IMG/VR virus record: IMGVR_UViG_3300020189_002207
Span: 1-25,533 of that record
Length of the DNA stretch: 25,533 nt
Origin: a virus
Reading direction: 5' to 3' (one strand)
Positions 1 to 24,744 of this stretch are shown piece by piece. How positions within the stretch are numbered: the stretch's first letter is position 1; every line of letters starts with the position of its first letter. Below the pieces are notes generated by a model. That model was not told the origin of the DNA. It searched no databases and saw only the letters and a list, made by a program, of their open reading frames with translations. The position numbers and the translations under genes are program-made.

Positions 1-126
1 TGCGAAACCGGGGTGGCAAAGATGTTGGGAAGCACTCAAGTGATTAGTGCCGACAACCCTCACATTCAGATCGAAGAGGTCACCTCACCTGGCATCCAGA
101 ATATTCACGAATTGTGTAAGCCTTAG
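1..126 (+). CDS. 3' end of an unidentified protein (partial)
   Basis: Frame 1 is open from the first base to a TAG at 124-126, giving 41 residues that end in NIHELCKP. The start lies outside the window. The composition is mixed and protein-like (VISADNPHIQIEEV), but no motif is recognisable. The next gene's promoter overlaps its last codons, as is common in compact phage genomes. The short length makes a chance open frame possible. Confidence 0.5.
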   Translation, partial: CETGVAKMLGSTQVISADNPHIQIEEVTSPGIQNIHELCKP

Positions 127-142
127 ACTCGTAGTTTATAAT
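114..142 (+). promoter_or_regulatory. promoter P1 (GTGTAA - 17 bp - TATAAT)
   Basis: A perfect -10 hexamer TATAAT (137-142) lies 17 bp after GTGTAA (114-119), 24 bases before the ATG at 167. The same arrangement, with extra shared bases (GTGTAAG, then TAGA, then TTATAATA), recurs at 466-494 before the next gene. The -35 element is far from TTGACA in both copies but identical between them. Confidence 0.6.
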
Positions 143-166
143 AGTCTCGAAGATAAGGAGCTAAAG

Positions 167-460
167 ATGGCTATCAACAACATCGACACCCAGTTCGCTA
201 ACGCTCGCGCAGAAGTTCGCGCGTTGATCAATCACTGCAAGGCTGATACCAACATTGGTGGTCGGAGCATCGAGGTCCTACAGAGCATCGTGGACACCCT
301 GGATGCCATCCAGAACGATAGCTACGATCATCCCACTAGCTTTGATCGCTATCCTACGGTTGAGGATCGCCCGGTCAACCCGAATGACGAGCCCACCAAT
401 CCCAACTTCCAGGCTTTCAAAGATCTAGAAGAGATGCGCCAGACCGATCGGCTGTGCTAG
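167..460 (+). CDS. small hypothetical phage protein
   Basis: This 97-residue protein begins MAINNIDTQF. The ATG at 167 is preferred because AAGGAG (155-160) sits 6 bases upstream and promoter P1 lies just before it; the in-frame ATG at 47 has neither. The N-terminal half looks helical (ARAEVRALINHCK, then VLQSIVDTLDAIQ). The C-terminal half is Pro/Asn/Asp-rich and probably flexible (DRPVNPNDEPTNPN). There are no membrane segments and no family is recognised. It appears to be its own transcription unit, followed by promoter P2. Confidence 0.7.
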   Translation: MAINNIDTQFANARAEVRALINHCKADTNIGGRSIEVLQSIVDTLDAIQNDSYDHPTSFDRYPTVEDRPVNPNDEPTNPNFQAFKDLEEMRQTDRLC

Positions 461-465
461 AAATA

Positions 466-494
466 GTGTAAGATCTAGAAGCTCCGGTTATAAT
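466..494 (+). promoter_or_regulatory. promoter P2 (GTGTAA - 17 bp - TATAAT)
   Basis: GTGTAA (466-471) and TATAAT (489-494) are separated by 17 bp, in the same register as P1. The two elements match at about 22 of 31 positions, including GTGTAAG, TAGA and TTATAATA. P2 lies in the gap between the genes ending at 460 and starting at 531. Confidence 0.6.
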
Positions 495-530
495 AAGAAC
501 GTAAATAACAAAACGCCTGGGGAGGCAATA

Positions 531-947
531 ATGGCAAACGCAACTCGAAAAACTTGGGTTCATGGCTTCTTTCTCAACACCTTCAACGCTGAGACTGGTA
601 ACTGGGAACTCCGCGATAGTCGTAACGAGGCTCTGATCGCCGAAGGTCCCAAGGCCGCTAAGCTCGGTAAGCTCGGTGCCGCTATGACCCGCACTGAGAA
701 GGCGTGGGACAAGCTCCGGAACCTGGAACGCCAGATGGAACTGGCTCAACGCGCCTACAGCCAGGCACACCGCGTGATGACTGACCTCTCGTTGGACATC
801 AGCATGGAAGAGAATGCTCGGGCTAGCGTGGAAGGACTTCGGGAAGAGACCCGCAAGAGCCTCCTCCGCATCGCTAAGCGTCGAGGCATCGTTGGCCGTC
901 ACAATCTCACCAAGGAGGAACTGGTCAATGCGCTAGCCGTCGACTAA
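531..947 (+). CDS. coiled-coil protein with C-terminal Rho_N/SAP-like domain
   Basis: The protein has 138 residues. The ATG at 531 follows a GGGGAGG ribosome site. Residues 1-45 look globular (WVHGFFLNTFNAETGNWELRD). Residues 50-100 are Glu/Arg/Gln-rich and helical, probably a coiled coil (AWDKLRNLERQMELAQRAY). The last 30 residues (LLRIAKRRGI, then LTKEELVNAL) have the two-helix pattern of the Rho N-terminal/SAP fold, which binds nucleic acid in other proteins. Such tails occur on many small phage proteins. A nucleic-acid-binding role is inferred from this tail alone. Codons are GC-rich compared with genes after 3 kb. Confidence 0.75.
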   Translation: MANATRKTWVHGFFLNTFNAETGNWELRDSRNEALIAEGPKAAKLGKLGAAMTRTEKAWDKLRNLERQMELAQRAYSQAHRVMTDLSLDISMEENARASVEGLREETRKSLLRIAKRRGIVGRHNLTKEELVNALAVD

Positions 948-954
948 GAACATC

Positions 955-1089
955 ATGGACAGACTCGAGGGGATCCTCATCGCCACGGGCTGCCTCCTTA
1001 CGGGGGCAGCTTTAGGCATTTTGGGGGAGATATTAGAAGAGAGAATAAGAACCTGGTGGAGAGCCAGGAAGTCCGGGAACAAAAATTGA
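955..1089 (+). CDS. 44-residue single-pass membrane protein
   Basis: A short frame starts at ATG 955, eight bases after the previous stop. The product begins MDRLEGILIATGCLLTG and has one hydrophobic segment (about residues 5-27), followed by a basic tail with WWRARK and NKN. This predicts a one-pass inner-membrane protein with a cytoplasmic C terminus by the positive-inside rule. Its TGA overlaps the TTG start of the downstream lipoprotein, a coupled small-membrane-protein/lipoprotein pair reminiscent in layout of Rz/Rz1 spanins. It is much shorter than Rz and lacks a periplasmic coiled coil. No clear ribosome site precedes it. Confidence 0.5.
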   Translation: MDRLEGILIATGCLLTGAALGILGEILEERIRTWWRARKSGNKN

Positions 1090-1376
1090 AAAACGCTATA
1101 GCACTACTGCTCTTACTCACCGCCTGTAAGACGCCCTCTCTATCTATCCAGGGATATACCATCTGGGAGACACCGACCCCTCAGACAGACTCCTGCTGTA
1201 AAGCGCTCACTCCACCCGAGGAGCAAGACACGGGATTCCGGTGCCCGGACGACCCACCACCCCAGTGTTCCGAGAGATGCTTAGCGGGAAGCCTGCACGC
1301 CCAGAACTGCTGTCACCGACCTCTGTACGCGTGCCCAGATGATGAGACGGTATCTCCCGACTGTGCGGAGTGGTGA
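1086..1376 (+). CDS. Cys-rich lipoprotein
   Basis: The protein has 96 residues from the TTG at 1086, which overlaps the preceding stop as TTGA. It opens with a short lipoprotein signal: a basic MKN, a hydrophobic AIALLLLL core and the lipobox LTAC, so Cys14 would be lipidated and the protein anchored to a membrane. The mature part has nine more cysteines, including CC pairs at 37-38 and 75-76, and is Pro-rich (PDDPPPQ), suggesting a disulphide-bonded extracytoplasmic protein. An in-frame GTG at 1056 would give an unusually long n-region, so TTG is preferred. An outer-spanin-like or surface-exclusion role is possible, but neither is shown. Confidence 0.6.
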   Translation: MKNAIALLLLLTACKTPSLSIQGYTIWETPTPQTDSCCKALTPPEEQDTGFRCPDDPPPQCSERCLAGSLHAQNCCHRPLYACPDDETVSPDCAEW

Positions 1377-1393
1377 CTCCCCTAAGTGAGTCT

Positions 1394-1458
1394 GCGCAGG
1401 GGGCTCCACGTGAGCCCTGGAGCGCGCGGGCCCCTCTAGGGGGCTAGGCGCAGGGGGC
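1394..1458. repeat. GCGCAGGGGGC direct repeat with GC-rich hairpins
   Basis: GCGCAGGGGGC occurs at 1394-1404 and again, identical, at 1448-1458, 54 bp apart. Between them GGGCTC (1401-1406) pairs with GAGCCC (1412-1417), and GCCCC (1430-1434) pairs with GGGGC (1440-1444). The second repeat runs into the palindrome GGGGGCCCCC. The first hairpin begins 25 bases after the lipoprotein stop, so it could end that transcript, but no T-run follows. Confidence 0.6.
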
Positions 1459-1530
1459 CCCCGCAAACTGTGTAGGGGGTAGGCTGCGCGGGCTGGGCCT
1501 AAGTGCACACTCACACTGCTCACGACTTTC

Positions 1531-1680
1531 CGAAAACTTTTTTCATTTCTAAAAATCGCAGAGTCAAAAAATTCTTCCGGAGAAATTTTGAAAAACTTTT
1601 CCCGAAACTAAAAAGAAACCGAAAAAGAGCAATCTCAAAAAAATCTTCGAGAGAAAATTTAGAAATCTTTTTAGTAAAGA
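1531..1680. other. A-tract-rich, possibly curved DNA
   Basis: Runs of 4-7 A or T recur every 6-17 bp. A-runs are at 1533-1536, 1551-1555, 1566-1571, 1591-1595, 1610-1614, 1622-1626 and 1637-1643; T-runs are at 1538-1543 and 1597-1600. The stretch sits abruptly beside the GC-rich repeats. Tracts spaced near the helical repeat bend DNA. The spacing here is only partly phased, so curvature is an inference. Confidence 0.4.
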
Positions 1681-2113
1681 GCTAGAAGCCTCGCCAGGAT
1701 CACGAGAATTGTGCGTGTGCGATTTCCATCGCGAACATGATGAGATACTAAGAGAAGACATCGTCTATACACAGAAGACAAAAACCCGCAGAAGTCTCAG
1801 AAGGGCGCTACTATCTCATGCGCTCCCTTACGAACGCATCTATCAGAGAACACACTGAATAGACTACACGAGAGCGCAACCGTCAACACTGTCGTCAACG
1901 CACACACAAGACTCGCCCACATCACGCATCATCTCGCCGCCAACAAATAACCAGATTATCTCACCCGTCAAAAACACCGGGATCAGAACAGCTTCCTCAG
2001 GGACGACGTTAGACGCAGACAACACTCCTCAGTCAGACACACGTATACAATCACATCTAACAAGATCGACACACACAAGACAATCTCTCTATAGAAGAGT
2101 CTAAGAACGCAGA

Positions 2114-2128
2114 GAGCGTCACACGCTC
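2114..2128. other. hairpin GAGCGT-CAC-ACGCTC
   Basis: This is a perfect 6-bp stem with a 3-base loop. It lies 12 bp upstream of a second, terminator-like hairpin. It could be part of a structured RNA or a protein-binding dyad. No gene overlaps it. Confidence 0.4.
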
Positions 2129-2140
2129 ATGACGCGCACT

Positions 2141-2166
2141 ACGCACGCTCACTTGAGTGCGTTTTC
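2141..2166 (+). terminator. terminator-like hairpin
   Basis: ACGCAC (2141-2146) pairs with GTGCGT (2157-2162), followed directly by TTTCT, giving TTTTCT from base 2162. The loop contains a second possible pairing, CTCA with TGAG. On the plus strand this resembles an intrinsic terminator. It lies 765 bases past the last plus-strand gene, so it would end a long non-coding transcript if it works. Confidence 0.4.
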
Positions 2167-2262
2167 TAGAAACGCTTGAACACTGGGACTCATGCACGAC
2201 AGTATTAAAAAACCGGGAACAGACAAGAGTCCTCAGTTGCAGCTATAGCGATGCAATCAGAT

Positions 2263-2320
2263 AGGGAAACGCTTATAGGGAGTCTAAGGGAGCGATAGGG
2301 ATCTCTAGGGAGTCTAGGGA
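2263..2320. repeat. six AGGGA boxes at helical spacing
   Basis: AGGGA starts at 2263, 2277, 2287, 2297, 2307 and 2316, so the steps are 14, 10, 10, 10 and 9 bp. Three boxes extend to AGGGAGTCT. The near 10-bp period puts the boxes on one face of the helix, as in arrays bound cooperatively by a protein. The array lies just past the 3' end of the minus-strand gene at 2374-2937, with no gene overlapping it. Confidence 0.65.
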
Positions 2321-2373
2321 GTGGGCTTATGCGGTGGGCCTTCGGCCGCGCGTGGGACCCTAAGTATTCGGGT

Positions 2374-2937
2374 TTAGCTCCCCGTGAACCACGTGTAAAG
2401 CTGATAGCCGTGATACGATGCCGCTGCGACCCCGATCCACGCGAACCCGTTCACCCACTTTCTCCAGAGCGAGTTCCAGTACTCTCGGGATTGCTCTCTG
2501 CGAATCTCCCGGTACTTCGCTGCGGGGTCCCACTCCTCTAGGGCGTGAGGACCGACGATCTCTTCTAGGAGCTGACCGACCTCTGGGACGGAGGTCCAGA
2601 ACCACTCCTTGCCTGGGGCGGACTCTACACGATTGAGCCGGCTGTGAATCTGTCTTTCTACCTGCCTGACATTGTCGACGGCGGCAGATATGAGAAGGAT
2701 TGCCTTCTCATTCGCGGCGGCACCCATCTGTTCATAGATTCTCTGTTCTGCACTTGCCTTGTCTGTGCATCCTATTTTCATTTGACATCGATCATCCGCT
2801 CGATTCTTCTTCGCATTGATGCACGACTCAAAAGTATACACGTAAATAAATCCACCACCATGCCCACATTTGTAAGCATTTTCGTTGTCAACTCGACTCA
2901 AGTAAGAGTCTCTAATTGCTTCTAAATCGTGCGGCAT
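2374..2937 (-). CDS. T5orf172-type GIY-YIG protein with hydrophobic C-terminal tail
   Basis: The 187-residue protein matches the T5orf172/Mug113 branch of the GIY-YIG fold: GFIYVYTF (29-36), KIGCT (54-58), an arginine at 66, E94 with H98 (VERQIH) and the closing EWFW (111-114). GIY-YIG folds are usually nucleases; this branch is common in phages and mostly uncharacterised. Residues about 163-184 (NGFAWIGVAAASYHGYQLYTWF) form an amphiphilic, possibly membrane-associated tail, unusual for the family. The domain-coding half is moderately AT-rich, while the 3' half after about residue 100 is clearly GC-rich, suggesting a fusion or recombination. It is the only minus-strand gene in the left part and has its own promoter. 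SD-like GAGG lies about 11 bases before the ATG. Confidence 0.75.
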   Translation of the reverse strand: MPHDLEAIRDSYLSRVDNENAYKCGHGGGFIYVYTFESCINAKKNRADDRCQMKIGCTDKASAEQRIYEQMGAAANEKAILLISAAVDNVRQVERQIHSRLNRVESAPGKEWFWTSVPEVGQLLEEIVGPHALEEWDPAAKYREIRREQSREYWNSLWRKWVNGFAWIGVAAASYHGYQLYTWFTGS

Positions 2938-2957
2938 TTCTAAAAGTCCTCATATCG

Positions 2958-2986
2958 ATTATATCATGTCAATAATCATAGTTCAA
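2958..2986 (-). promoter_or_regulatory. sigma70-type promoter for the GIY-YIG gene
   Basis: On the minus strand, TTGAAC (plus 2981-2986), a 17-bp spacer and TATAAT (plus 2958-2963) preceded by TGA form an extended -10 promoter. It lies 21 bp before the ATG at 2937. TTGACA also occurs twice on this strand (plus 2968-2973 and 2993-2998), one copy inside the spacer, which might be operator sequence. Confidence 0.6.
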
Positions 2987-3163
2987 AATGGCTGTCAAGA
3001 TTACGAGATTAACTTGAGATGAAAACAAATATACAATCTTATTAGTTTATCAATAAAAGAACCAGTTTGAATCCAGAAGTCAATTCAATGGAATGACACG
3101 AAGTGTTATGACATTGAAAAACATAGAAAACACAAGATTTTGAGTGACTCGCCTGCGCGTCTA

Positions 3164-6565: not shown

Positions 6566-6582
6566 GCGAAAGGGAGATGAAA

Positions 6583-7029
6583 ATGTCAGATATCAATGAA
6601 GTCTTATCAAAGCTTTCTCAGATCGATGGTGCTATTAAAAATTCTTCTGCGCTAAACGGAGGATTTGATGCCCTAGTTGAAGATATCAAAGATCTTCGGA
6701 CAGATTTGCATGAAGTTAAAAATAGCTTACGAGAAATAAAAGATACTGTCAATCACCCAGATACAGGGGTTATTTCTAGAATACGTGATCTAGAATCTGA
6801 GCAATCTAGAAGAATGCCTCTTTTAGATAAACTCAATACAATGGGAATTAGATATGACGATCTTCTCCCATGGAGAGATGATACAGAAAAAAGATTAGAT
6901 CATCTAGTTATACAAAATACACAACTAGAAAATTGGCAAAAAAGTGCAACTAGACTAATTTGGATACTAGGTGGTACAGTTGGTTCATTATTTGTTAAAA
7001 TGCTATGGGAATTGATGCTTAAGGTTTAG
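6583..7029 (+). CDS. coiled-coil protein with C-terminal membrane anchor
   Basis: ATG 6583 is preferred over ATG 6577 because AAAGGGAG (6569-6576) sits 6 bases before it and would abut the other. The 148 residues are helical with heptad-like pattern (about 28-56: LVEDIKDLRTDLHEVKNSL), then a second helix region, and one membrane segment at about 123-144 (ATRLIWILGGTVGSLFVKML). Tail-anchored coiled-coil proteins of this shape include the XhlA-type phage lysis factors, but homology is not clear. It lies one base before the YeaH gene, so it could serve as membrane partner for the YeaH-SpoVR-PrkA set; this is inference from position. Confidence 0.65.
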   Translation: MSDINEVLSKLSQIDGAIKNSSALNGGFDALVEDIKDLRTDLHEVKNSLREIKDTVNHPDTGVISRIRDLESEQSRRMPLLDKLNTMGIRYDDLLPWRDDTEKRLDHLVIQNTQLENWQKSATRLIWILGGTVGSLFVKMLWELMLKV

Positions 7030-7030
7030 T

Positions 7031-8194
7031 ATGAGCACTTTTACAGAACATAAATCTATCGCAGACAGATCAGCAACTGATCGTGCTCGTCACAAAAAAA
7101 AGATTGATAAAGCACTCAAAGAAGGTATTAGAGAAATTGTTGCTGATGAGTCTATTATTGGTCAAGACGGTAATAAAAAAATAAAAATTCCTGTTCGTGG
7201 AATTAAAGAGTATCAATTTGTCTATGGAGACAACTCAAAAAAAGTTGGCGGCGCACAAGGAAAAGATATAAAACGTGGACAAAAAATTGCAGATGCCAAG
7301 AAAGACCAACCTCAAAAAGCTGGAAATCAAAGCGGTGAGGAACACTATGAAGTTGAAGTCACCCTTGAAGAATTGGCTGAGCATTTATTTGCTGATTTAG
7401 AGCTTCCAGACTTGGAGAGAAAAAAGTTTAAATTTATCTCTTCTGAGTCATATAAAAGAAAAGGTTACAGACCATACGGTATTCGTCCTAGGCTTTCTAA
7501 AAAACTAACTCTAAAAAATAAAATAAGAAGAAAAAAAATAGCAGAAAAATCGGGAACTTATTCTAAGGATGATGAAGAAAGATTTCCGTTTCATGAGTCT
7601 GACTTAAAGTACAAACATTTTCAAAATCAGCCTGTTGAAATAAGTTCAGCAGTAATCTTTTTTATAATGGATGTTTCCGGCTCCATGAGTACCGAAAAGA
7701 AGTATATTGCTAGAAGCTTTTTCTTTTTGTTATATCAATTTTTAAGACACAAATATGACAACATTGAAGTTGTTTTTGTTGCTCATACCACTGATGCTAA
7801 GGAAGTTTCTGAAGAAGACTTCTTTAAGCTTTCACCAAGTGGTGGCACATTTATTTCTCCAGCACTTGACTTAACTTTAAATGCAATTGAAAAAAGATAT
7901 CATCCTCAAAACTGGAACATATATACTTTTCACTGCTCTGATGGAGATAACTGGAGCGAAGATGAGGAAAAAGCCATAAGTGCTAGCTTAAAGCTAAAAG
8001 AGAAATGCCAGCTTTATGGATATTGTGAGATCGATCCAGACGGTAGAAACTTACAATGGAGAACATCTTCTTATTCGAGAACGTATGAGACTTACACTCC
8101 GCATGCTGATGAAAAATTTAAACTTCTTCTTTTGAACTCTTCAAAAGATATCTGGCCTGCCTTTAAGAGTCTTTTTGGTGGAAAAGAGGTGTAA
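7031..8194 (+). CDS. yeaH: YeaH/YhbH family protein (DUF444, VWA domain)
   Basis: The 387-residue protein carries the N-terminal DUF444 signature (RSATDRARHKKKIDKALKE, then KIKIPVRGIKEYQFVYG) and a basic middle. A C-terminal von Willebrand A domain has the metal site DVSGSMS (D214, S216, S218), GGT (PSGGTFISPAL) and SDGDNWSED. Length is near B. subtilis YhbH. In bacteria this family is linked with the PrkA kinase and SpoVR in nutrient-stress and sporulation physiology; its biochemical role is unsettled, and VWA domains usually mediate protein contacts. Here it heads the set YeaH-SpoVR-PrkA, separated by 1 base from SpoVR. The metal-site residues are intact, so it is probably functional. A close bacterial copy would suggest recent capture. 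Confidence 0.92.
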   Translation: MSTFTEHKSIADRSATDRARHKKKIDKALKEGIREIVADESIIGQDGNKKIKIPVRGIKEYQFVYGDNSKKVGGAQGKDIKRGQKIADAKKDQPQKAGNQSGEEHYEVEVTLEELAEHLFADLELPDLERKKFKFISSESYKRKGYRPYGIRPRLSKKLTLKNKIRRKKIAEKSGTYSKDDEERFPFHESDLKYKHFQNQPVEISSAVIFFIMDVSGSMSTEKKYIARSFFFLLYQFLRHKYDNIEVVFVAHTTDAKEVSEEDFFKLSPSGGTFISPALDLTLNAIEKRYHPQNWNIYTFHCSDGDNWSEDEEKAISASLKLKEKCQLYGYCEIDPDGRNLQWRTSSYSRTYETYTPHADEKFKLLLLNSSKDIWPAFKSLFGGKEV

Positions 8195-8195
8195 A

Positions 8196-9503
8196 ATGAC
8201 TTGGACATTTGAAGAGTTGAAAATGTGGGATGAAAAAATTTGTGAAATTGGAAGAAAGTACAATTTAGACTGGCATCCCATCGATTATGAAATCTGTGAT
8301 TATCATGACATGATTGGATATATGGCATACACTGGCATGCCAACTCATTATCATCACTGGTCTTATGGTAAATCTTTTGAAAGAACACATCAGATGTACA
8401 ATCTGGGAATGGAAGGTCTACCTTATGAGATGATCATCAATTCAAATCCCAGTATTTCTTATTTGATGACAGAGAACCCTATGTCTACGCATGTATTGAC
8501 TATGGCACACTGTGTAGGACATTCGGACTTCTTTAAAAACAATAGAATGTTTAGACATACAGATCCAGATAATATAATAGCAAGATTTAAAAATGCTGCT
8601 AAAAGAGTCAATAAGTATGTTGAAAATCCTTCTATTGGCATTGACGCTGTTGAGGAAATTTTAGATGCCGCGCATGCTTTAAAGTATCAGATGTCAAGAG
8701 AATTTAATGTCAAAAGGCTTTCTATTAAAGAGCAAAAAGAAAAATATTTAAAAATATTAAATGAAAATCCTGAAAGACTACCATCTGATTTCGATATTAA
8801 TCAAGTTCCAATTGAAAAAGATTACAATATTCTTGAGTTTATTAGAGATAATAGTAGAAACTTAGAAGACTGGGAAAGAGATCTTTTAACAATAGTTTCT
8901 GATGAAGGCAAATATTTTATTCCTCAAGCAATGACTAAGATAATGAATGAGGGATGGGCTTCATTTTGGCACTATAAAATTCTCCATGAGCTTGAATTAC
9001 CTCAAGAATATCATATGAGCTTTTTAAAGCTTCATAATCAAGTAATTAGACCTATTGTTGGAAGAATCAATCCTTATCACTTAGGTTTTACGATATTTAA
9101 TTGGATTGAAAAAAATATGGGATTAGATCATTGTTTTATAGCAAGAGAAAGCCATAATGACGAATCTTTTATTAGAACATATTTGAATGAAGAAATTTGT
9201 AGAGATTTAAATCTATTTACATACTCAAAGAAAAGAACAGAGTGGTCAATTGATGATATCTCTGATGATGATGGATGGAAAGTAGTAAGAGAAGAACTAA
9301 TAAAAAATGTTGGTCTTGGTAGTCTACCTCAAATTTTCATAGAAAGAATTGAAAAAAATCATACTTTGATATTAGGGCATGACCATGATGGAAGAGACTT
9401 AGAACTCTCTTATGCAGGAAAAGTTTGTGAACATATTGTCGATTTATGGGGAGACGATGTAAAATTATTCACGATTATTGAAGATGAACCTTTTGAAATT
9501 TGA
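8196..9503 (+). CDS. spoVR: SpoVR family protein (YcgB-like)
   Basis: ATG 8196 follows the YeaH stop by one base with GAGG upstream; an in-frame GTG at 8175 lies inside yeaH. The 435 residues follow the SpoVR family throughout: WTFEELKMWDEKICEIGRKYNLD at the start in split form, MPTHYHHWSYGKSFE, INSNPSISYLMTEN, AHCVGHSDFFKNN (A104-H105, H109) and NEGWASFWHY. The conserved His-rich segments may bind metal; the function is unknown. SpoVR is needed for normal spore cortex in Bacillus, while YcgB in enterics belongs to the stationary-phase regulon. It is slightly shorter than cellular forms (about 470-510), mostly at the C terminus. No spore-forming host is implied. Confidence 0.92.
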   Translation: MTWTFEELKMWDEKICEIGRKYNLDWHPIDYEICDYHDMIGYMAYTGMPTHYHHWSYGKSFERTHQMYNLGMEGLPYEMIINSNPSISYLMTENPMSTHVLTMAHCVGHSDFFKNNRMFRHTDPDNIIARFKNAAKRVNKYVENPSIGIDAVEEILDAAHALKYQMSREFNVKRLSIKEQKEKYLKILNENPERLPSDFDINQVPIEKDYNILEFIRDNSRNLEDWERDLLTIVSDEGKYFIPQAMTKIMNEGWASFWHYKILHELELPQEYHMSFLKLHNQVIRPIVGRINPYHLGFTIFNWIEKNMGLDHCFIARESHNDESFIRTYLNEEICRDLNLFTYSKKRTEWSIDDISDDDGWKVVREELIKNVGLGSLPQIFIERIEKNHTLILGHDHDGRDLELSYAGKVCEHIVDLWGDDVKLFTIIEDEPFEI

Positions 9504-9535
9504 TCATTTTTTAAGTTTTCTTTAATATTTACATA

Positions 9536-9552
9536 TGAGCACATGATGCTCA
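9536..9552 (+). other. hairpin in the spoVR-prkA gap
   Basis: TGAGCA-CATGA-TGCTCA forms a 6-bp stem with a 5-base loop, 20 bases before the PrkA start at 9573 and just upstream of its GAGG ribosome site. It could be an mRNA processing or stability element setting PrkA levels apart from its partners. An ATG at 9543 lies in the loop but has no ribosome site. Confidence 0.35.
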
Positions 9553-9572
9553 CCTTTAAACGAGGAAATAAA

Positions 9573-11504
9573 ATGCCGAAAACAGATTTTAAAAAGCTAA
9601 TCCAAGACCAGAGAAAGAATAAAAAAAGCGAAAAATTCTCAGGTACCTTTCTAGACTATCTTGATCTAGTTGAAAAAGGTGATGTAAAAGTAAGACTAGC
9701 TCATAAAAGACTGTATGACTCAATTGTCGATGATGGCATTGAAACTCTTGATGAAACTGATCCAAGATGTAGAAAACTATTCGGTGGAGAAAAAACCAGA
9801 GTTTACAGCTATTTTAAAGATCATTTTTTTGGAATGGAAAATTCAATTTCAAAAATTATGCGGTATCTAAGATCAGCGTCTCTAAAAGGTGAGGAAAGTA
9901 GACAAGTTCTTCTTCTTTTAGGTCCCGTTGGAGCCGGTAAGTCTGCCCTCATGGAACACATCAAGGCAGCACTTGAATCCTCCGAAGAAGTTTATCACCT
10001 TGAAGGTTGCCCAATTAGAGAAGAACCTCTTCATCTTTTACCTAGATCTCTTCGACCACAATTTGAAGAAATTTTAGGTACTAGCATTGAAGGTGATTTA
10101 TGCCCTGTATGTCGACATAGACTTTTAAATGAATTCAATGGTGAGTATGAGAAGTTTCCTGTAAAAACTTCTTCTTTCTCATCTAGAGGTCGAAGAGGTG
10201 TTGGTGTTGTGCCACCAGTCGATGCAAACACACAGGATACGTCAATCCTTATCGGAAGTGAAGATATTTCTAAGCTTGATATCTATCCTGAAGATGACCC
10301 AAGAGTTATGTCTCTAAATGGTGCGTTTAATGTTGGTAATCGTGGTATTGTTGAATTTGTCGAAGTCTTTAAGAATGAGATTGAATTTTTACATACGATG
10401 ATCACAGCAACGCAGGAAAAGAATGTTCCTTCTCCAGGTAAGGGACCAATGATTTATTTTGATGGTGTTATTTTAGCACACTGCAATGAAGCTGAGTGGA
10501 ATAAATTCAAGTCAACGCATACCAATGAAGCTATTCTTGATAGAATCGTAAGAGTTAATGTTCCTTACTGCCTCGAGCTTGACCAAGAAGTTAAGATTTA
10601 TCAAAAACTTATTAAGCACAGTGATTTTGATGCACACATTGCGCCACACACAATTCAGGTAGCATCAATGTTCTCAGTCATGTCTCGACTTAAGCCTTCA
10701 AATAAAGTTGAACCACTGGTAAAAATGAAAATTTATAACGGTGATGATATCATTGAAAAAGGAAGAGTTAAGAAGGTTGATATTAAAGATCTTCGTGAAG
10801 AAGCTAGGGATGAAGGAATGACAGGTATTTCTACTAGGTTCATTATGAAGGCTATCGATGCAGCAATATCAGACTCAGACAAGAATATGGTAACTCCTAT
10901 CTCAATTAGAGATGCCTTGATTAAGCAAGTTAAAGATCAAATAGTTAACGAAGAAGCCAGAGAAAGATATTTGCAATACCTTCAAAAAGATCTTCACGAA
11001 GAATACCTAAGAATTCTGGAAAAGGAAATTACAAAAGCTTTTGTTTCTGCTTATGAAGAACAAGCTGAATCTCTTTTTGACAATTACCTTGATCATGCTG
11101 AAGCTTATGTCAATAAGACAAACGTTAAAGATCGAGTGACAAGAGAAGAGATGGAACCTGATGAAAAATTCATGGCATCCATTGAAGAGAATATCGGTAT
11201 CACAGGATCTTCTAGAGATGGATTTAGAGCAGATGTAACTTCTTATATGTTTTCCCTCATGAGATCAGAAAAGAAGATTGACTGGAAAGCATATGGACCG
11301 CTTAAAGAAGCTATTGAAAATAAGCTTATGGCATCGGTTAAAGATCTTTCCAGAATTGTGACTAAGTCCAAAAGCAGAGATAAGAAGCAACAAGGAAAAT
11401 ACAATGAGATGGTAAAAACCTTGATTGATGACTACGGTTACAACGAAGACTCTGCTGAAGAAATTATTAAGTTTGCATCAAATAACTTGTGGAGAGATAG
11501 CTAA
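9573..11504 (+). CDS. prkA: PrkA family serine protein kinase (YeaG-like AAA+ protein)
   Basis: ATG 9573 is preferred for its GAGG site; the in-frame ATG 9543 has none. At 643 residues it matches cellular PrkA/YeaG (about 640). The N-terminal AAA domain has GPVGAGKS (117-124), the PrkA segments EEPLHLLPRSLRPQFEE and GDLCPVCRHRL, and FDGVILAHCNEAEWNKF. The C-terminal helical kinase-related domain follows, ending NNLWRDS. Known family: reported as a Ser/Thr kinase, and in Bacillus also as a protease-like ATPase, active under starvation. All main segments look intact. It closes the YeaH-SpoVR-PrkA set; in enterics the order is PrkA-YeaH with YcgB elsewhere. Host-stress signalling under phage control is the natural inference. 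Confidence 0.93.
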   Translation: MPKTDFKKLIQDQRKNKKSEKFSGTFLDYLDLVEKGDVKVRLAHKRLYDSIVDDGIETLDETDPRCRKLFGGEKTRVYSYFKDHFFGMENSISKIMRYLRSASLKGEESRQVLLLLGPVGAGKSALMEHIKAALESSEEVYHLEGCPIREEPLHLLPRSLRPQFEEILGTSIEGDLCPVCRHRLLNEFNGEYEKFPVKTSSFSSRGRRGVGVVPPVDANTQDTSILIGSEDISKLDIYPEDDPRVMSLNGAFNVGNRGIVEFVEVFKNEIEFLHTMITATQEKNVPSPGKGPMIYFDGVILAHCNEAEWNKFKSTHTNEAILDRIVRVNVPYCLELDQEVKIYQKLIKHSDFDAHIAPHTIQVASMFSVMSRLKPSNKVEPLVKMKIYNGDDIIEKGRVKKVDIKDLREEARDEGMTGISTRFIMKAIDAAISDSDKNMVTPISIRDALIKQVKDQIVNEEARERYLQYLQKDLHEEYLRILEKEITKAFVSAYEEQAESLFDNYLDHAEAYVNKTNVKDRVTREEMEPDEKFMASIEENIGITGSSRDGFRADVTSYMFSLMRSEKKIDWKAYGPLKEAIENKLMASVKDLSRIVTKSKSRDKKQQGKYNEMVKTLIDDYGYNEDSAEEIIKFASNNLWRDS

Positions 11505-11539: not shown

Positions 11540-12868
11540 ATGCCTTACACAAAATCAATAAATAAAAACTGCTTTAATCACTCGCTTAATAGCTTTGTAG
11601 AAAAAATTAAAAAAGCTTGTCTAAGCAAAGATTCCAACTCTGTTTACTTCGCAGGTGATGGTACACCTATCATATCAAAATACTCCTTAAATACTGTTAG
11701 AATGCTCCCTGTTGACTCTAGGGAGGAAAATATTTTCAAACAAATAATCGTTGAATTTTTACTGAAAAGCGAAAATTTATCTGGCTTCTCTTCCGACATT
11801 TTTCTATCTTACTTTTTAGATTTGTTATCTCTCTCTAAAGACGAGAGTTTTAATAGTAGTAAAAATACTGAAAAAATAAAAGCTGAGATAAACAAATCTC
11901 TTTCAAAACCTATGCTCGGCGATTTAGAAAGTTTTCTTGATAGGAATTTTGAAAGCTTGTATAGCAAAGCAGTTTTTGAAGCTTTGAAATCTTTTGGTTT
12001 AAACGGAAGAATAGAGATTAAAAGAAAAAACTGTGATAAGGTAATTGTTGAAACTTCTAGAGGTTTTAGTTTTAAATGTCTTCCTGATGAGAACTTACTT
12101 TATTTTTCAAAAGGAAAATACGATAGAGAAAATGTAAAAGCATTTGTAATCGATGGAATTATCGAAAAAGTTTCTGAGCTTGACCGGATATTAAATTATG
12201 CTGCAAGTACAAAGCAATCGATTGCAATATTTTGTAGAGGATATACAGAAGAAGTTTTGTCAACAATTATGACAAATAACATGAGAGGAACTATCGATGT
12301 GCTTCTCTTAGCTTCAAAGATTGATGAAAATTCAGCAAATGATCTTTCTGATATTTGTGTCTGTACAGGATCAAAATTTTGTTCAGTATTTTCAGGTGAG
12401 CTAATTACATCAATTGACCCAGAAGAAGACTATGGATTAGTTGATAGAATGATTGCTACACCAGAAAAAGTTACAATCATAAATGAGAAAACTAAAACAA
12501 GCGTTAAAAAGAGAATAGCGGAATTAATTAAAAATAATTACGATAATATAAACTTAGACTACTACAAAAATAGAATCAAAAACCTTTCAGGTCACACATG
12601 CACAATATATGTCCCTGAAAAAGATGAGCAAAAGAATGTTTTTATGACTTCTAATTTTGATGCTACTCTAAGGTCTGCTAAGTCTGTTATTTCAAAAGGA
12701 TTAGTTATTCCTTCTAGCATTGTAGCTTTTAATGACATTAAGTTTCCTTCAATGATTGAAGTCAACAACAATATTCCTGCTGAAAGTTTTTTTGTGGGTG
12801 TTGAGATGGGAAATAAATGTTTTGAAAAAATTAAATCAATTGAAAAATTAATTACTATCGATCAATAG
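11540..12868 (+). CDS. divergent, shortened GroEL-like chaperonin
   Basis: The 442-residue protein aligns by eye along most of GroEL: PIISKYSLNTV (43-53) with PTITKDGVSVA; LYSKAVFEALKSFGLNGRIEI with LIAEAMDKVGKEGVITV; DGIIEKVSELDRILNYAA, MRGTIDVLLLASK and SDICVCTGSKF with the apical domain. FDATLRSAKSVISKGLV matches the segment holding the catalytic Asp, kept here as D374. Cellular GroEL has about 548 residues; both equatorial halves are shortened, and the nucleotide motif GDGTTT is replaced (GFSSDIF near 82-88). ATP binding and ring assembly are doubtful. It may be a chaperonin-derived substrate binder or decoy. No GroES gene is nearby. No ribosome site is visible; a TATAATG box lies just upstream (about 11529). 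Phage GroELs are known, but this one is unusually degenerate. Confidence 0.75.
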   Translation: MPYTKSINKNCFNHSLNSFVEKIKKACLSKDSNSVYFAGDGTPIISKYSLNTVRMLPVDSREENIFKQIIVEFLLKSENLSGFSSDIFLSYFLDLLSLSKDESFNSSKNTEKIKAEINKSLSKPMLGDLESFLDRNFESLYSKAVFEALKSFGLNGRIEIKRKNCDKVIVETSRGFSFKCLPDENLLYFSKGKYDRENVKAFVIDGIIEKVSELDRILNYAASTKQSIAIFCRGYTEEVLSTIMTNNMRGTIDVLLLASKIDENSANDLSDICVCTGSKFCSVFSGELITSIDPEEDYGLVDRMIATPEKVTIINEKTKTSVKKRIAELIKNNYDNINLDYYKNRIKNLSGHTCTIYVPEKDEQKNVFMTSNFDATLRSAKSVISKGLVIPSSIVAFNDIKFPSMIEVNNNIPAESFFVGVEMGNKCFEKIKSIEKLITIDQ

Positions 12869-14833: not shown

Positions 14834-15153
14834 GGGGCCGACACGGTTTCGACGTGGTCGGATATTAAGGTGATGCAAGTCCTGGAGGTGCCTGGCCAGG
14901 TAAAAAGGCACAAAATAATAATCGCAAACGACGATTTTGAAACATACGCACTCGCTGCTTAATAACCAGTAGATGCGTGAGGCGGCAACAGCCAATAAAC
15001 AGAAAGTTGCTTGAGATAAGGTTTGCTCGCTCCTTCTAAAAGAGGGCATATTTTTGAGATGCGCTTGCTGGAGCCAAAAACCAGCTAAACTTGTAAATGA
15101 ATCCCTATAATTGAAAATTGCGGACGCGGGTTCGATTCCCGCCGGCTCCACCA
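14834..15153 (+). ncRNA. ssrA: tmRNA (one-piece), tag ANDDFETYALAA
   Basis: The 5' end GGGGCCGAC and TTCGAC match the tRNA-like half of tmRNA. The 3' end has the T arm GCGGG-TTCGATT-CCCGC (15126-15142), an acceptor strand pairing with the 5' GGGGCCG over 7 bp (one G-U), and an encoded CCA (15151-15153). The tag frame starts at the GCA resume codon (14924) and reads ANDDFETYALAA, then TAA TAA; E. coli reads ANDENYALAA, so the degradation signal ALAA is kept. tmRNA with SmpB rescues stalled ribosomes and tags broken products for proteolysis. No SmpB gene is visible, so host SmpB would be used. One-piece form differs from the two-piece tmRNAs of Alphaproteobacteria. No separate promoter is seen. 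Confidence 0.96.
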
Positions 15154-15436: not shown

Positions 15437-16762
15437 TTGAAAAAAACATTTGTTTTAGATACCAACGTTTTACTTTATGATTCCGAAAGTATTTTTTCCT
15501 TCGATGATAATAATATTGTGATTCCTCTAATTGTTTTAGAAGAATTAGATCAAAAAAAGAACAGACAAGATGAAATTGGGAAAAATTCTAGAAAATCTTC
15601 CAGATATCTTGATGAGCTTAGAGATCAAGGGAGTTTGCAAAAAGGAGTCAAATTAAAGTCAGGAGGAATAATCAAGGTACTTTCTAAAGATCAAATAGAG
15701 GGTTTTGATAATGTTCTTTTGTCTGATATGGACGAATCTAAGCCTGATAGTATTATTATTGCTACAGCATACAGTTTGCAAAAAAATGAAAAAGATCCCG
15801 TAATACTTGTAACGAAAGACATAAATGTAAGAGTAACTTGTGATGTTTTAGGCGTACAGTGTGAAGATTATAGAAAACATAGAGTGGTTTCTGATGCAGA
15901 AACACTATACTCAGGTGTTCAAAGAATAGAAGTCTCACAGGAGATAGTTAATAAGTTTTACACAACAAGAAAATTAGAAATTGATGATACTTTTAAAGAT
16001 CATGAACTATATCCTAATCAATTCCTGGTATTGAAGGACAACAATTCAGGTCAGCAGTCAATAATATCCAGATTTAAAAATTGGAACCAACCTCTAACGC
16101 CTTTAATTGAAACAAAGCAAACATGGGGATTAATTCCAAGAAACAAAGAGCAAAAATTTGCGCTTGACATTCTTTTTGATGATTCAATAAAGCTTGTTAC
16201 TCTGGTTGGAAAAGCCGGAACAGGAAAGACGCTGTTAGCAATCTCTTCAGCACTTCAACAAACTCTTGAACCTACCAATAAGTTGTATAAAAAAGTTGTT
16301 ATATCTCGCCCTGTTCAACCTGTTGGAAAAGATATAGGATTCCTACCTGGGACTCTTGAAGAAAAAATGGATCCTTGGATCGCACCTATTAAGGATAATT
16401 TAAAGTTCTTGTTTAGCAACGACTCTTTTACGATGGACATGTACATTGAAAGAGGTGAGATAGAGATTGAAGCAATAACTTTTATTAGAGGGCGTTCAAT
16501 TGCTGATGCAATTATTATTATTGATGAAGCCCAAAATCTCACAACTCATGAACTAAAGACTATTATTACACGTGTCGGTGAGAACACAAAAATTATATTG
16601 ACTGGTGACATAGATCAAATTGATAATACATACGTTGATTCTGTCTCTAACGGATTGACTTATGCAATTGAAAAGTTTAAAGATTATCCTATAGCTGCTC
16701 ATATTACACTTTTAAAGGGAGAAAGATCCGAGCTTGCAACCCTAGGTGCAAAAATTCTTTAA
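15437..16762 (+). CDS. phoH: PIN-PhoH fusion ATPase
   Basis: The start is TTG 15437 with AGGAAG 5 bases upstream; the product begins MKKTFVLDTNVLLYD, the normal opening of this family. The N-terminal PIN domain (about 1-150) has the acidic residues D8, E35-E36 and DSIIIATA, and TKDINVR, as in toxin-type RNases. The C-terminal PhoH domain has GKAGTGKT (258-265), Walker B IIIIDEAQN (D363-E364) and LTGDIDQID. The 441-residue length is normal. Known relatives (PhoH2) couple RNA cleavage with ATP-driven unwinding. phoH is frequent in marine phages, though mostly without PIN. RNA turnover during infection is the likely role. No conserved residue is missing. Confidence 0.93.
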   Translation: MKKTFVLDTNVLLYDSESIFSFDDNNIVIPLIVLEELDQKKNRQDEIGKNSRKSSRYLDELRDQGSLQKGVKLKSGGIIKVLSKDQIEGFDNVLLSDMDESKPDSIIIATAYSLQKNEKDPVILVTKDINVRVTCDVLGVQCEDYRKHRVVSDAETLYSGVQRIEVSQEIVNKFYTTRKLEIDDTFKDHELYPNQFLVLKDNNSGQQSIISRFKNWNQPLTPLIETKQTWGLIPRNKEQKFALDILFDDSIKLVTLVGKAGTGKTLLAISSALQQTLEPTNKLYKKVVISRPVQPVGKDIGFLPGTLEEKMDPWIAPIKDNLKFLFSNDSFTMDMYIERGEIEIEAITFIRGRSIADAIIIIDEAQNLTTHELKTIITRVGENTKIILTGDIDQIDNTYVDSVSNGLTYAIEKFKDYPIAAHITLLKGERSELATLGAKIL

Positions 16763-19272: not shown

Positions 19273-19291
19273 GGAAAGACTTGGAGTGTGT

Positions 19292-21220
19292 ATGTTTGAT
19301 CAAAATATATTTAGCGTAAACACAGAAAAATTAGTTCCTGCATCTGCAAGGATTGTTTTTGTTTCTGACGCATTTGTTGAAGATTATGTAGGTGGTGCTG
19401 AGTTGACATCTCAGGCACTTATTGACGCTTCGCCTTTCGAAGTTTTTAAGATTCACGCAAAAGATGTGACTATGAAGACTCTAGAGTCTGGTCATCAAAA
19501 ATATTGGATTTTTGGTAACTTCTCTTCTTTGGACTGGAAGCTAATCCCAGCCATTATCACAAATATGAAGTACTCTGTGCTTGAGTATGATTATAAATTT
19601 TGTAGATATCGATCACCTGAAAAGCATGAATCTATTGAAAAGCAAAAATGTAATTGTCATGAGGATCAGCAAGGAAAAGTAATATCAGCATTTTACCACG
19701 GTGCTAAGTCTCTCTGGTGGATGTCTGAGAAGCAGATGGGACTATATCACAGTAAGTTTCCTTTTTTGAGCCAGGGAAGAAATACTGTTCTCTCATCAGT
19801 CTTTGACGAAAACTTCTTTTCTCATATTAAGTCGCTGAGAGAGAAGTATCAAGATACTGACAGAAAAGGTTGGATTGTTTTAGGGTCTACTTCCTGGATT
19901 AAAGGATATGATGAAGCTGTAAAATGGTGTGAAGAAAACAATAAGGACCACGAAGTTGTTTGGAACGTACCTTACTTTGATCTCTTGGAAAAACTAGCAA
20001 AGTCTGAAGGTCTTGTATTCCTTCCTAATGGTGCAGATACATGTCCGAGACTTGTTATTGAGGCAAAACTACTAGGTTGTGAGCTTGAACTAAATGAAAA
20101 TGTTCAGCACAAAGATGAGATCTGGTTTGATACAGATGATATGTTTGACACCGAAGCTTATCTTTACGCAGCTAGAGAAAACTTTTGGAACGGTATCAAG
20201 TCAGATATGGGATTTGATGCATCAATAAGCGGATACACTACTACACTGAACTGCATCAAAAGCGGCTATCCTTGGCGTGAGTCGATCACATCTCTTCTGG
20301 GATTCTGCGATGAGGTTTGCATAGCCGATGGAGGATCAACGGACGGAACATGGGAAGAACTTCAGAACTGGGCAGAAAAAGAAGAAAAACTGGTAATATA
20401 CCGAAATGAAATTGATTTAGAAGATCCTAGGTTTGCGGTAAAATCCGATGGCTTATTAAAAGCTCTTGCTAGAAGTATGTGCACAAAAGAGTTTTGTTGG
20501 CAAATGGATGCCGACGAGATCGTTCATGAAGACGATTATGAAAAAGTTAAAAGTCTTTGTGTTCAATTTCAAAATGGATTAGATCTATTAGCGATGCCTG
20601 TAATTGAGTATTGGGGCGGCCCAGAAAAAGTAAGAGTTGATATTAATCCCTGGAAGTGGAGAATTAGTAGAAACAAGTCGCACATTACTCATGGTCCTCC
20701 TGCGCACCTAAGAAGATATGATGAAAACGGTGAGCTTTACTGTGCAAAAGGAACTGATAGTTGTGATTATATTAGAAATGATAGCTATCAGCCGATCCAG
20801 TTTGGAACATTTTATACAGACGATGTTCATAGGTGTCGAATGGCTGCTATGGAAGGAAACGAACATGCAATATCTCAATATCAAGCATGGTTTAATCACA
20901 TAACTGATATGCTTCCTTCTGTTCACCACTTTTCATGGTGGGACATGGAAAGAAAAATTAAAAACACAAGAGATCATTGGTCAAAGTTTTGGGGATCAAT
21001 GTACAATGAATCAATTGATGATACACCTGAAAACAACAAGATGTTTGATGTTGCGTGGACTGATGTTTCTGAGGATATGATTAAAGAGAGAGCTGAAGAG
21101 CTAACTGAAAAACTTGGCGGATGGATTTGGCACCAAAAATGGGACGGAGAAACTATTACTCCTCACGTTAAGCTCAATAAGCAAATTCCTGCTGTTATGA
21201 AAAATTGGATAGAAAATTGA
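19292..21220 (+). CDS. two-domain glycosyltransferase (GT4-like + GT2)
   Basis: ATG 19292 follows TTGGAG by 5 bases; an in-frame GTG at 19286 overlaps this site. The 642 residues hold two enzymes. Residues about 18-290 resemble a GT-B fold: RIVFVSDAFVEDYVGGAEL at the start, and FLPNGADTCPRLVIEAKLLGC, the sugar-nucleotide segment with its Glu. Residues about 310-600 are a GT2 (GT-A) domain: CDEVCIADGGSTDGTWEEL and the metal motif DADE (406-409). Such fusions transfer two sugars in sequence or to one acceptor. A long Trp/His-rich C-terminal region follows (HHFSWWDMERK). It opens the glycan operon; acceptors could be virion proteins or host envelope. Confidence 0.85.
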   Translation: MFDQNIFSVNTEKLVPASARIVFVSDAFVEDYVGGAELTSQALIDASPFEVFKIHAKDVTMKTLESGHQKYWIFGNFSSLDWKLIPAIITNMKYSVLEYDYKFCRYRSPEKHESIEKQKCNCHEDQQGKVISAFYHGAKSLWWMSEKQMGLYHSKFPFLSQGRNTVLSSVFDENFFSHIKSLREKYQDTDRKGWIVLGSTSWIKGYDEAVKWCEENNKDHEVVWNVPYFDLLEKLAKSEGLVFLPNGADTCPRLVIEAKLLGCELELNENVQHKDEIWFDTDDMFDTEAYLYAARENFWNGIKSDMGFDASISGYTTTLNCIKSGYPWRESITSLLGFCDEVCIADGGSTDGTWEELQNWAEKEEKLVIYRNEIDLEDPRFAVKSDGLLKALARSMCTKEFCWQMDADEIVHEDDYEKVKSLCVQFQNGLDLLAMPVIEYWGGPEKVRVDINPWKWRISRNKSHITHGPPAHLRRYDENGELYCAKGTDSCDYIRNDSYQPIQFGTFYTDDVHRCRMAAMEGNEHAISQYQAWFNHITDMLPSVHHFSWWDMERKIKNTRDHWSKFWGSMYNESIDDTPENNKMFDVAWTDVSEDMIKERAEELTEKLGGWIWHQKWDGETITPHVKLNKQIPAVMKNWIEN

Positions 21221-21924
21221 AAATAGTTTTTGTATCTCCGTGCTATAACGCAGAGAAAAATTTAAAAAACTTAATTGGATCTATAGCGTCACAGAATGAT
21301 TCCAGATGGCATCATGTTATCATAGATGATATTTCATCGGATAATACATACGAAATAGCTCTGGAGTTAACCCAGAGTGATTCTAGGTTTACTGTGATTA
21401 AAAACACAGAGAAGAAATACGCACTTAGAAACATTATCGAAACTAGTAGAATGTTCCAGAACGATAATGCTGTTATTGCTACTGTTGACGGAGATGACTC
21501 TCTTTGTAATGAAAGCACTGTCAATAAAGTTTTACAGTGTTATACAGCAGGAAGCGATATCGTATGGACTGCACACAAATGGGACTTGAAAAATCTAAAT
21601 ATCTCAAAAGAAATGCCTGGAAATGTGAATCCTTACCAGTGGCCTTGGTGTTCTTCTCATTTAAGGACTTTTAGATCATCACTTTTAAAAGATATCTCTG
21701 ATGAAAATTTTAAAGACTGGAATGGAGAGTGGTTTAAAAGAGGATATGATCAGGCGCTAATGCTGCCACTTCTATATAAAACACAAAAAAGATTCTATTT
21801 AAATGAAGTTTGCTACCAGTATAATATTGAGTCTGTGTCTATGACTTCTTCTGAAAGAATTAAAGCAGATCATTCTCAAATATCAACAGTGAATTTTGTA
21901 AGAGCAAGAGGCTTCATGAGTTGA
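21217..21924 (+). CDS. GT2 family glycosyltransferase
   Basis: TTG 21217 overlaps the previous stop as TTGA and gives the typical opening MKIVFVSPCYNAEKNL; the upstream TTG 21205 lacks support. The 235 residues show IIDDISSDNT (35-44) and the metal motif DGDD (91-94), the two nucleotide-sugar sites of GT2 enzymes, plus YDQALMLPLL, a plausible catalytic segment. The acceptor is unknown. Stop/start overlap on both sides implies translation tied to its neighbours. Confidence 0.88.
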   Translation: MKIVFVSPCYNAEKNLKNLIGSIASQNDSRWHHVIIDDISSDNTYEIALELTQSDSRFTVIKNTEKKYALRNIIETSRMFQNDNAVIATVDGDDSLCNESTVNKVLQCYTAGSDIVWTAHKWDLKNLNISKEMPGNVNPYQWPWCSSHLRTFRSSLLKDISDENFKDWNGEWFKRGYDQALMLPLLYKTQKRFYLNEVCYQYNIESVSMTSSERIKADHSQISTVNFVRARGFMS

Positions 21925-22814
21925 AAATACTCTTCGATAATATAAATTTTCAATCAAATTCAGGACCGAATAGTTTTGGTCTAAAGCTTGCACTAGAACT
22001 TGAAAAATCAGGCAACTCAATCAATAAAAATGAAATACCTGATATTCAACTATCCTTTATACAAGCAACTAGAAAAGTAGCACCTCTTATCCAAAGATTA
22101 GATGGTATTTATTTTAATTCTGAGCAAGATTGGAAATCACAGAATGCACCTATTCAATCAACTTATGATCATGCAGATGGCGTAATTTTTCAATCTAAAT
22201 TTAATAAAACACTTACTGAAAAATACTTTGGTAAAAAAGATAAAAATACTGTTATTCATAATGGAACTGATTTAGAAAAAATTAAATTAATTCCTGCAAT
22301 AAGCAATCCGCTCTTGAATGATTTTGAAAATGTTTGGACATGTGCTTCTTCTTGGCGCCCACATAAGAGACTGTCTGAAAATGTCAGATATTTTCTTGAA
22401 AATGCTGGTGAAAAAGATTGTCTTGTTATTGCTGGGAATAATCCTGACTTTGAATTAAAACATGATAGAGTTTTCTATGCTGGTAATTTAGATTGGCCTC
22501 AATTAATCTCTCTTTATAAGAGGTCTAAATACTTTCTTCATCTTGCGCTTTTAGACCACTGCCCAAATGTTGTAGTTGATGCCAGAGCAGCAGGATGCAA
22601 AATTATATGTAGTTCATCAGGTGGAACAAAAGAGATTGCTGGAGATAATTCTGTGATCATAGAGGATATGGAATGGGACTATCTTCCATTCAAACTATAT
22701 AATCCACCAAAACTAGACTTTTCTAAGAAAATCAAATATGAAACTTCTTGTTCAATTGATATCAAAGATGTTTCAAGTATGTATCTTAGTTTTTTTAATG
22801 AGGTTTTAAAATGA
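21921..22814 (+). CDS. GT4-like glycosyltransferase
   Basis: The start is TTG 21921, overlapping the previous TGA. The 297 residues have a GT-B layout: MKILFDNINFQSNSGPNSFG at the N terminus, VIHNGTDLEKI in the linker, and the donor-binding segment CPNVVVDARAAGCKIICSSSGG. The usual Glu of this segment (EALA) is Asp here, which may still work. It is short for GT4 (often 350-400), with a reduced N-terminal domain. Function beyond sugar transfer is not visible. Confidence 0.82.
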   Translation: MKILFDNINFQSNSGPNSFGLKLALELEKSGNSINKNEIPDIQLSFIQATRKVAPLIQRLDGIYFNSEQDWKSQNAPIQSTYDHADGVIFQSKFNKTLTEKYFGKKDKNTVIHNGTDLEKIKLIPAISNPLLNDFENVWTCASSWRPHKRLSENVRYFLENAGEKDCLVIAGNNPDFELKHDRVFYAGNLDWPQLISLYKRSKYFLHLALLDHCPNVVVDARAAGCKIICSSSGGTKEIAGDNSVIIEDMEWDYLPFKLYNPPKLDFSKKIKYETSCSIDIKDVSSMYLSFFNEVLK

Positions 22815-24726: not shown

Positions 24727-24744
24727 AAAATCCGGAGTAAAGTT

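Follow-up and report, generated by a model that had tools for sequence, protein, structure and literature searches.

The YeaH-SpoVR-PrkA gene set as a repeatedly captured module of tailed phages

In bacteria, PrkA, YeaH and SpoVR are co-conserved (PMC2375023), with homologues acting in sporulation (PMC13001217) and, in the case of YeaG, in nitrogen starvation (PMC4664914). Loss of yeaH or ycgB leads to sensitivity to antimicrobial peptides, the result for ycgB being given as unpublished data in the paper concerned (PMC2375023), and yeaG mutations were selected in T7-resistant E. coli lines, which had many other mutations (PMC10044975). Regarding PrkA, the purified Bacillus anthracis protein, 88% identical to B. 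subtilis PrkA, oligomerised with ATP and exhibited neither detectable kinase nor detectable protease activity (PMC13001217); a weak protease activity of B. subtilis PrkA was described in an earlier report, as cited in PMC13001217. Among cellular systems, the Clostridia-type operon (e.g. Acetivibrio, Pseudobacteroides) has the same three families adjoining on one strand, and its proteins are 57-63% (PrkA), 43-50% (YeaH) and 45-49% (SpoVR) identical to those of the phages considered here; it differs by its prkA-yeaH-spoVR order and its location on a cellular chromosome, the phage copies forming their own clade.

Complete sets have also been annotated in viruses. The Thermus phages YS40, MN1, phiLo and Lalka8 carry DUF444, SpoVR and PrkA in the same order as the locus described below, except for one extra gene ahead of prkA in YS40, and their PrkA, only about 32% identical to that of the phages under study, belongs to a separate clade pointing to a separate capture. 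All three genes are likewise present in the huge uncultured phages LR745206, LR756502, LR756504 and LR756511, which differ by a prkA-first order and, in two of the four, by genes that are spread out; the sets of the first three are of Proteobacteria type and that of LR756511 is of Bdellovibrionota type. In the Ralstonia jumbo phage RsoM2USA, SpoVR and PrkA were annotated near each other and not reported as a trio (PMC8504454). Besides, in a virome study of an oxygen minimum zone, spoVR was the most abundant sporulation-related viral gene and was read as aiding sporulation (PMC8940887). In the open-access literature searched, no paper was found that treats the trio as a module of phages or deals with its repeated capture; the complete trio is not new to phages, because the Thermus phages possess all three as annotated genes, and the complete set recognised in an initial annotation of the present locus is no novelty as such. 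At the functional level, an analogy is provided by the MoxR-type pairs associating an AAA+ ATPase with a VWA/MIDAS partner, such as NorQ-NorD, RavA-ViaA and CbbQ-CbbO; the analogy stops there, as PrkA is not a MoxR-family AAA+ protein and there is no common operon or sequence membership.

The window, i.e. the whole stretch of DNA analysed here, corresponds to the viral IMG/VR record IMGVR_UViG_3300020189_002207 (25,533 nt). Intact yeaH, spoVR and prkA adjoin head to tail on its + strand, and Pfam matches and coordinates bear out the complete neighbouring set recognised in the initial annotation. The YeaH/YhbH (DUF444) gene (7031-8194; 387 aa) is separated by a single base (8195) from spoVR (8196-9503; 435 aa), which is followed by prkA (9573-11504, the longest ORF starting at 9543). 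Since the SD-like ACGAGGA lies just before the ATG at 9573, this position is the more likely translation start of PrkA; the previously given gap of 69 bases between spoVR and prkA holds with that start and becomes 39 bases with the longest ORF. One base before yeaH ends a gene for a coiled-coil protein with a C-terminal hydrophobic segment (6577-7029, + strand), and a divergent GroEL-like protein of 442 aa (11540-12868, + strand) is encoded downstream of the trio, followed by short conserved genes, a nucleotidyltransferase, a tmRNA, a PIN-PhoH protein, fibre-like genes and then sugar-processing genes.

Taken one by one, the three proteins have retained the motifs that had been noticed from the sequence. 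YeaH matches PF04285 with 368.8 bits for a Pfam cut-off of 27 (E=5e-110), and its best NCBIfam model, TIGR02877, scores 398 bits, under the equivalog cut-off of 468. Its predicted model (pLDDT 72) has a VWA fold (best PDB match E=1e-6), and the matches include MIDAS domains of AAA+ partners, namely Rea1/MDN1 and NorD bound to NorQ (E=3e-4), which rank no higher than generic VWA domains. The MIDAS is intact, the core DVSGS (D214, S216, S218; 7670-7684) and the further ligands T273 (7847-7849) and D304 (7940-7942) being invariant or nearly so in 48 sequences. SpoVR matches PF04293 (407 bits, E=8e-122) and SpoVR_C (PF24755, 32 bits), both above the Pfam cut-off. Its residues H105 and H109, in H105-C-V-G-H109 (8508-8522), and E252 (8949-8951), in NEGWA, do not vary among 47 sequences of phages and bacteria, nor in A1; they correspond to H112, H116 and E259 in the alignment numbering, counted from an upstream TTG. 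Together they look like a metal site of the gluzincin type lacking the Glu of HExxH, which makes SpoVR a putative metal-binding protein. A canonical HExxH zinc peptidase can be dismissed, the catalytic Glu being missing and no solved peptidase fold matching; the AlphaFold2 model of SpoVR (pLDDT 85) gave nothing convincing in a comparison with solved folds (best E=0.08, with a TM of about 0.1), and SpoVR has no relative of solved structure. As for PrkA, both AAA_PrkA (PF08298, 477 bits, E=6e-143) and the PrkA C-terminal domain (PF06798, 273 bits, E=5e-81) are recognised, far above the Pfam cut-offs, a solved relative is available (9xip, E=6e-98), and the AAA+ domain has an intact Walker A motif, GPVGAGKS (9921-9944), with G127, P128, K133 and S134 conserved wherever the site is covered.

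The database searches and co-occurrence mapping called for in the initial annotation reveal how common this arrangement is. Three independent IMG/VR queries returned 173 sequences, one of which is a fragment of the window, making 174 with the window itself. The exact yeaH-spoVR-prkA trio, in the same order and strand, occurs in 166 of these 174, an otherwise identical trio with yeaH split or doubled in four, and only two of the genes in the last four; since order and strand recur to this extent over three independent queries, the arrangement is not due to chance. There are 106 non-redundant trio loci, in which the two intergenic distances have medians of -4 and 3 bases, and relatives of SpoVR were detected on 360 viral stretches by an alignment-based query. 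Median dN/dS values for yeaH, spoVR and prkA are 0.041, 0.043 and 0.040, as calculated from pairs with 80-98% protein identity only, which share ancestry; these values denote a strong purifying selection, acting to a similar degree on each of the three.

The contigs bearing the trio are viral and belong to a large group of tailed phages, in line with the viral surroundings initially described: among the 25 longest (100-284 kb), a gp23-type (T4-type) capsid protein is encoded in 19 and a large terminase in 21. The window itself, a 25.5-kb fragment, has no gp23-type major capsid protein. That it would be chromosomal DNA of a cellular organism is extremely improbable; a shift in base composition near 3 kb (GC 0.51 to 0.33) and the presence of one relative inside a MAG labelled Halobacteriovorax could be taken that way, but the gp23 and terminase genes of most long relatives, which rule out bacterial contamination for the group, a syntenic phage neighbourhood and the distant PrkA (35%) that this MAG possesses elsewhere all argue against it. 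Of note, positions 1-3000 of the window have sparse coding and a GC content of 0.50-0.53, vs 0.30-0.44 elsewhere, and no similar DNA was found in the phage collection; this part may stem from joining during assembly or be of foreign origin. The contig binned with Halobacteriovorax (G026:C25, loci L264-L268; 101 kb) combines the trio with the phage neighbourhood and is therefore probably phage, so that the bin needs care; no match to gp23 or terminase was obtained on its first 100 kb. Halobacteriovorax was not retained as a host, a MAG bin being weak host evidence and the MAG's own PrkA being only 35% identical. With gp23 as the anchor of the search, one of 15 contigs proved to encode SpoVR; three of these contigs reach at least 170 kb, the others being fragments. 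It was not found in two long gp23-bearing relatives (175 and 183 kb), and the trio is thus frequent in, and neither universal nor essential to, this phage group, which excludes it as a universal core.

Phylogenetic trees of PrkA, SpoVR and YeaH (47-48 sequences each) place the phages of the window type in one clade (support 100/99 for PrkA, 100 for SpoVR and 98 for YeaH), separate from and not inside any one host clade. The two outcomes that were to refute the initial annotation, flanks of bacterial chromosome and trees with all three genes inside one host clade, thus did not materialise. For PrkA, this clade is sister to the Clostridia-type cellular set (99/100), SpoVR agreeing with weaker support (90) and the YeaH tree leaving the sister group open. 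Because the branch is long, this relationship would indicate a source lineage at best, and the reading of Clostridia as the host, drawn from these nearest cellular relatives, was discarded. In all three trees, three of the huge phages join Proteobacteria and one Bdellovibrionota; the Thermus phages, on long branches, make up a clade by themselves. Four switches between phage and bacterium are required in each gene tree, and a single phage clade is rejected by the AU test on PrkA (p 8e-63, long branches being a caveat), which leaves no room for a single phage origin. These concordant switches and huge-phage groupings indicate that whole sets were captured repeatedly and kept whole, by at least four phage lineages drawing separately on different bacterial sources. 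Concerning gene order, the one described as unlike that of enteric bacteria does differ from the common bacterial prkA-yeaH-spoVR, also encountered in the cellular sets nearest the phage clade; it is not exclusive to phages, since yeaH-spoVR-prkA recurs, beyond the window phages, in two Bacillota genomes (L256, L263) as well as in the Thermus phages, and rearrangement may have occurred more than once.

Within the phage genomes, the trio block is found in two layouts, either after the gp23 block (23/106 loci; four contigs measured give a distance of 5.7-5.9 kb to gp23) or far from gp23, where GroEL-like (48/106) and PhoH (45/106) genes commonly lie downstream; gp23 and GroEL-like neighbours never occur together (0/106). 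Between these two arrangements, the block travels as a whole. As retrieval of the loci relied on similarity to the trio, these figures hold solely for phages that possess it. The GroEL-like protein of the window matches phrog_5725 (chaperonin GroEL, E=1e-17), the match to GroEL models (E about 5e-14) being below the cut-off, and its gene is a frequent neighbour and only a candidate member of the module. The coiled-coil gene suggested as a fourth member does sit one base before yeaH; with homologues directly upstream in only 9/106 loci (one subclade, gaps of 1-19 bases), it is an accessory of that subclade and not a core member.

Several other genes around the trio deserve mention. In the window, positions 15437-16762 encode a PIN-PhoH fusion (PhoH2-like RNA helicase), which recurs in 45/106 loci and also in long relatives lacking SpoVR. 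A complete tmRNA gene (14834-15153; Rfam RF00023, 143.6 bits) specifies the tag ANDDFETYALAA; tmRNA is above the cut-off in 16 of the 25 long relatives, with tags that vary (ANDDFDIYAIAA, ANDADYDLALAA). From 19286 to 25533, glycosyltransferases, a GDP-mannose-dehydratase-like epimerase and a Nol-like carbamoyltransferase follow in a run, probably for surface-sugar or capsid/tail glycosylation. In other loci, a PLP-dependent cysteine-synthase-like gene lies directly 3' of prkA (about 10 loci; L022:13262-14239), and an HD_4 hydrolase of the RelA/SpoT kind is encoded two genes before yeaH (L180:2344-2922). A link to the stringent response via the latter was discarded, its homologues occurring in only four non-redundant loci.

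The reading we favour, with somewhat better than even confidence, is that of a functional phage-owned copy of the PrkA-YeaH-SpoVR set, kept as a unit by selection and reworking a stressed host. From the AAA+ domain of PrkA, the VWA model of YeaH and the His/Glu site of SpoVR, a motor-adaptor-effector scheme can be proposed: PrkA would form an ATP-driven AAA+ ring serving as motor, YeaH would be its VWA/MIDAS adaptor recognising a client via the metal site, and SpoVR would be the metal-binding effector (HxxxH plus E) that PrkA-YeaH loads, remodels or activates, presumably within a physical complex. In the course of infection, the trio, presumably expressed late, would probably keep or rework the starved or stressed host so that a large phage completes its cycle, a benefit suggested by the bacterial use of the trio in starvation, sporulation and envelope stress. 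The initial annotation went further in proposing that the trio would let the phage impose or mimic a stationary-phase state of the host; in this model, PrkA would act as a serine kinase and the programme would be that of stationary phase or sporulation. Such a programme would fit the roles of the bacterial homologues in nitrogen starvation and sporulation, the spore-forming class Clostridia as nearest cellular relatives and the interpretation given to viral spoVR in the oxygen minimum zone; it is nevertheless unlikely, considering that sporulation regulators were not seen near the trio block, that E. coli and other non-sporulators also have the trio, and that the purified B. anthracis PrkA is devoid of detectable kinase activity, which undermines the mechanism itself.

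The position of the trio among structural genes could instead point to an AAA+/MIDAS machine of the late genes, taking part in the assembly or maturation of virions or in packaging, and not in host physiology. In Lalka8 the trio lies between the portal/minor head protein and TerL genes, and that of YS40 is followed, three genes further on, by TerL; among the present phages, in addition to the layout following the gp23 block, the trio is on the gp23 strand in 17/19 contigs and a capsid- or fibre-type family lies within 8 kb in 72/106 loci, a count that includes some fibre-like genes recognised by weak similarity. This role is doubtful, though, given that gp23 is 63-114 kb distant in 15/19 contigs, that long gp23-bearing relatives lack the trio, that the sister bacterial sets function without virions, and that the T4-type late promoter TATAAATA was not enriched upstream of the trio block. 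Equally tentative is a broader version, in which a general protein-remodelling machine, and not a sporulation or stress switch, would have been repeatedly taken whole by large phages and run during virion production, the late-gene neighbourhood in unrelated phages then being functional. A contribution to host takeover or counter-defence, the AAA+/VWA pair disabling host defences or remodelling the envelope against competing phages, appears quite improbable: the selected yeaG mutations and the peptide-sensitivity phenotypes, which suggest an envelope role, speak for it, but the T7-resistant lines bore many other mutations, and the search for known defence families gave only marginal PADLOC matches, none over the main domain, which also disqualifies the trio as a known anti-phage defence system.

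The PrkA-YeaH-SpoVR module is thus real and repeatedly captured, although not new to phages. While these proteins are widespread in bacteria, their biochemistry is unsettled, and the fact that the whole set is under strong selection and was captured at least four times speaks for a single functional unit made up of the three proteins, paying off in infection. The phage copies offer a small and separable test system for the trio, the Thermus phages that carry it being culturable. Beyond this, the reports of viral "sporulation genes" in virome surveys, such as spoVR, would then concern a machine of three proteins instead of isolated auxiliary genes.
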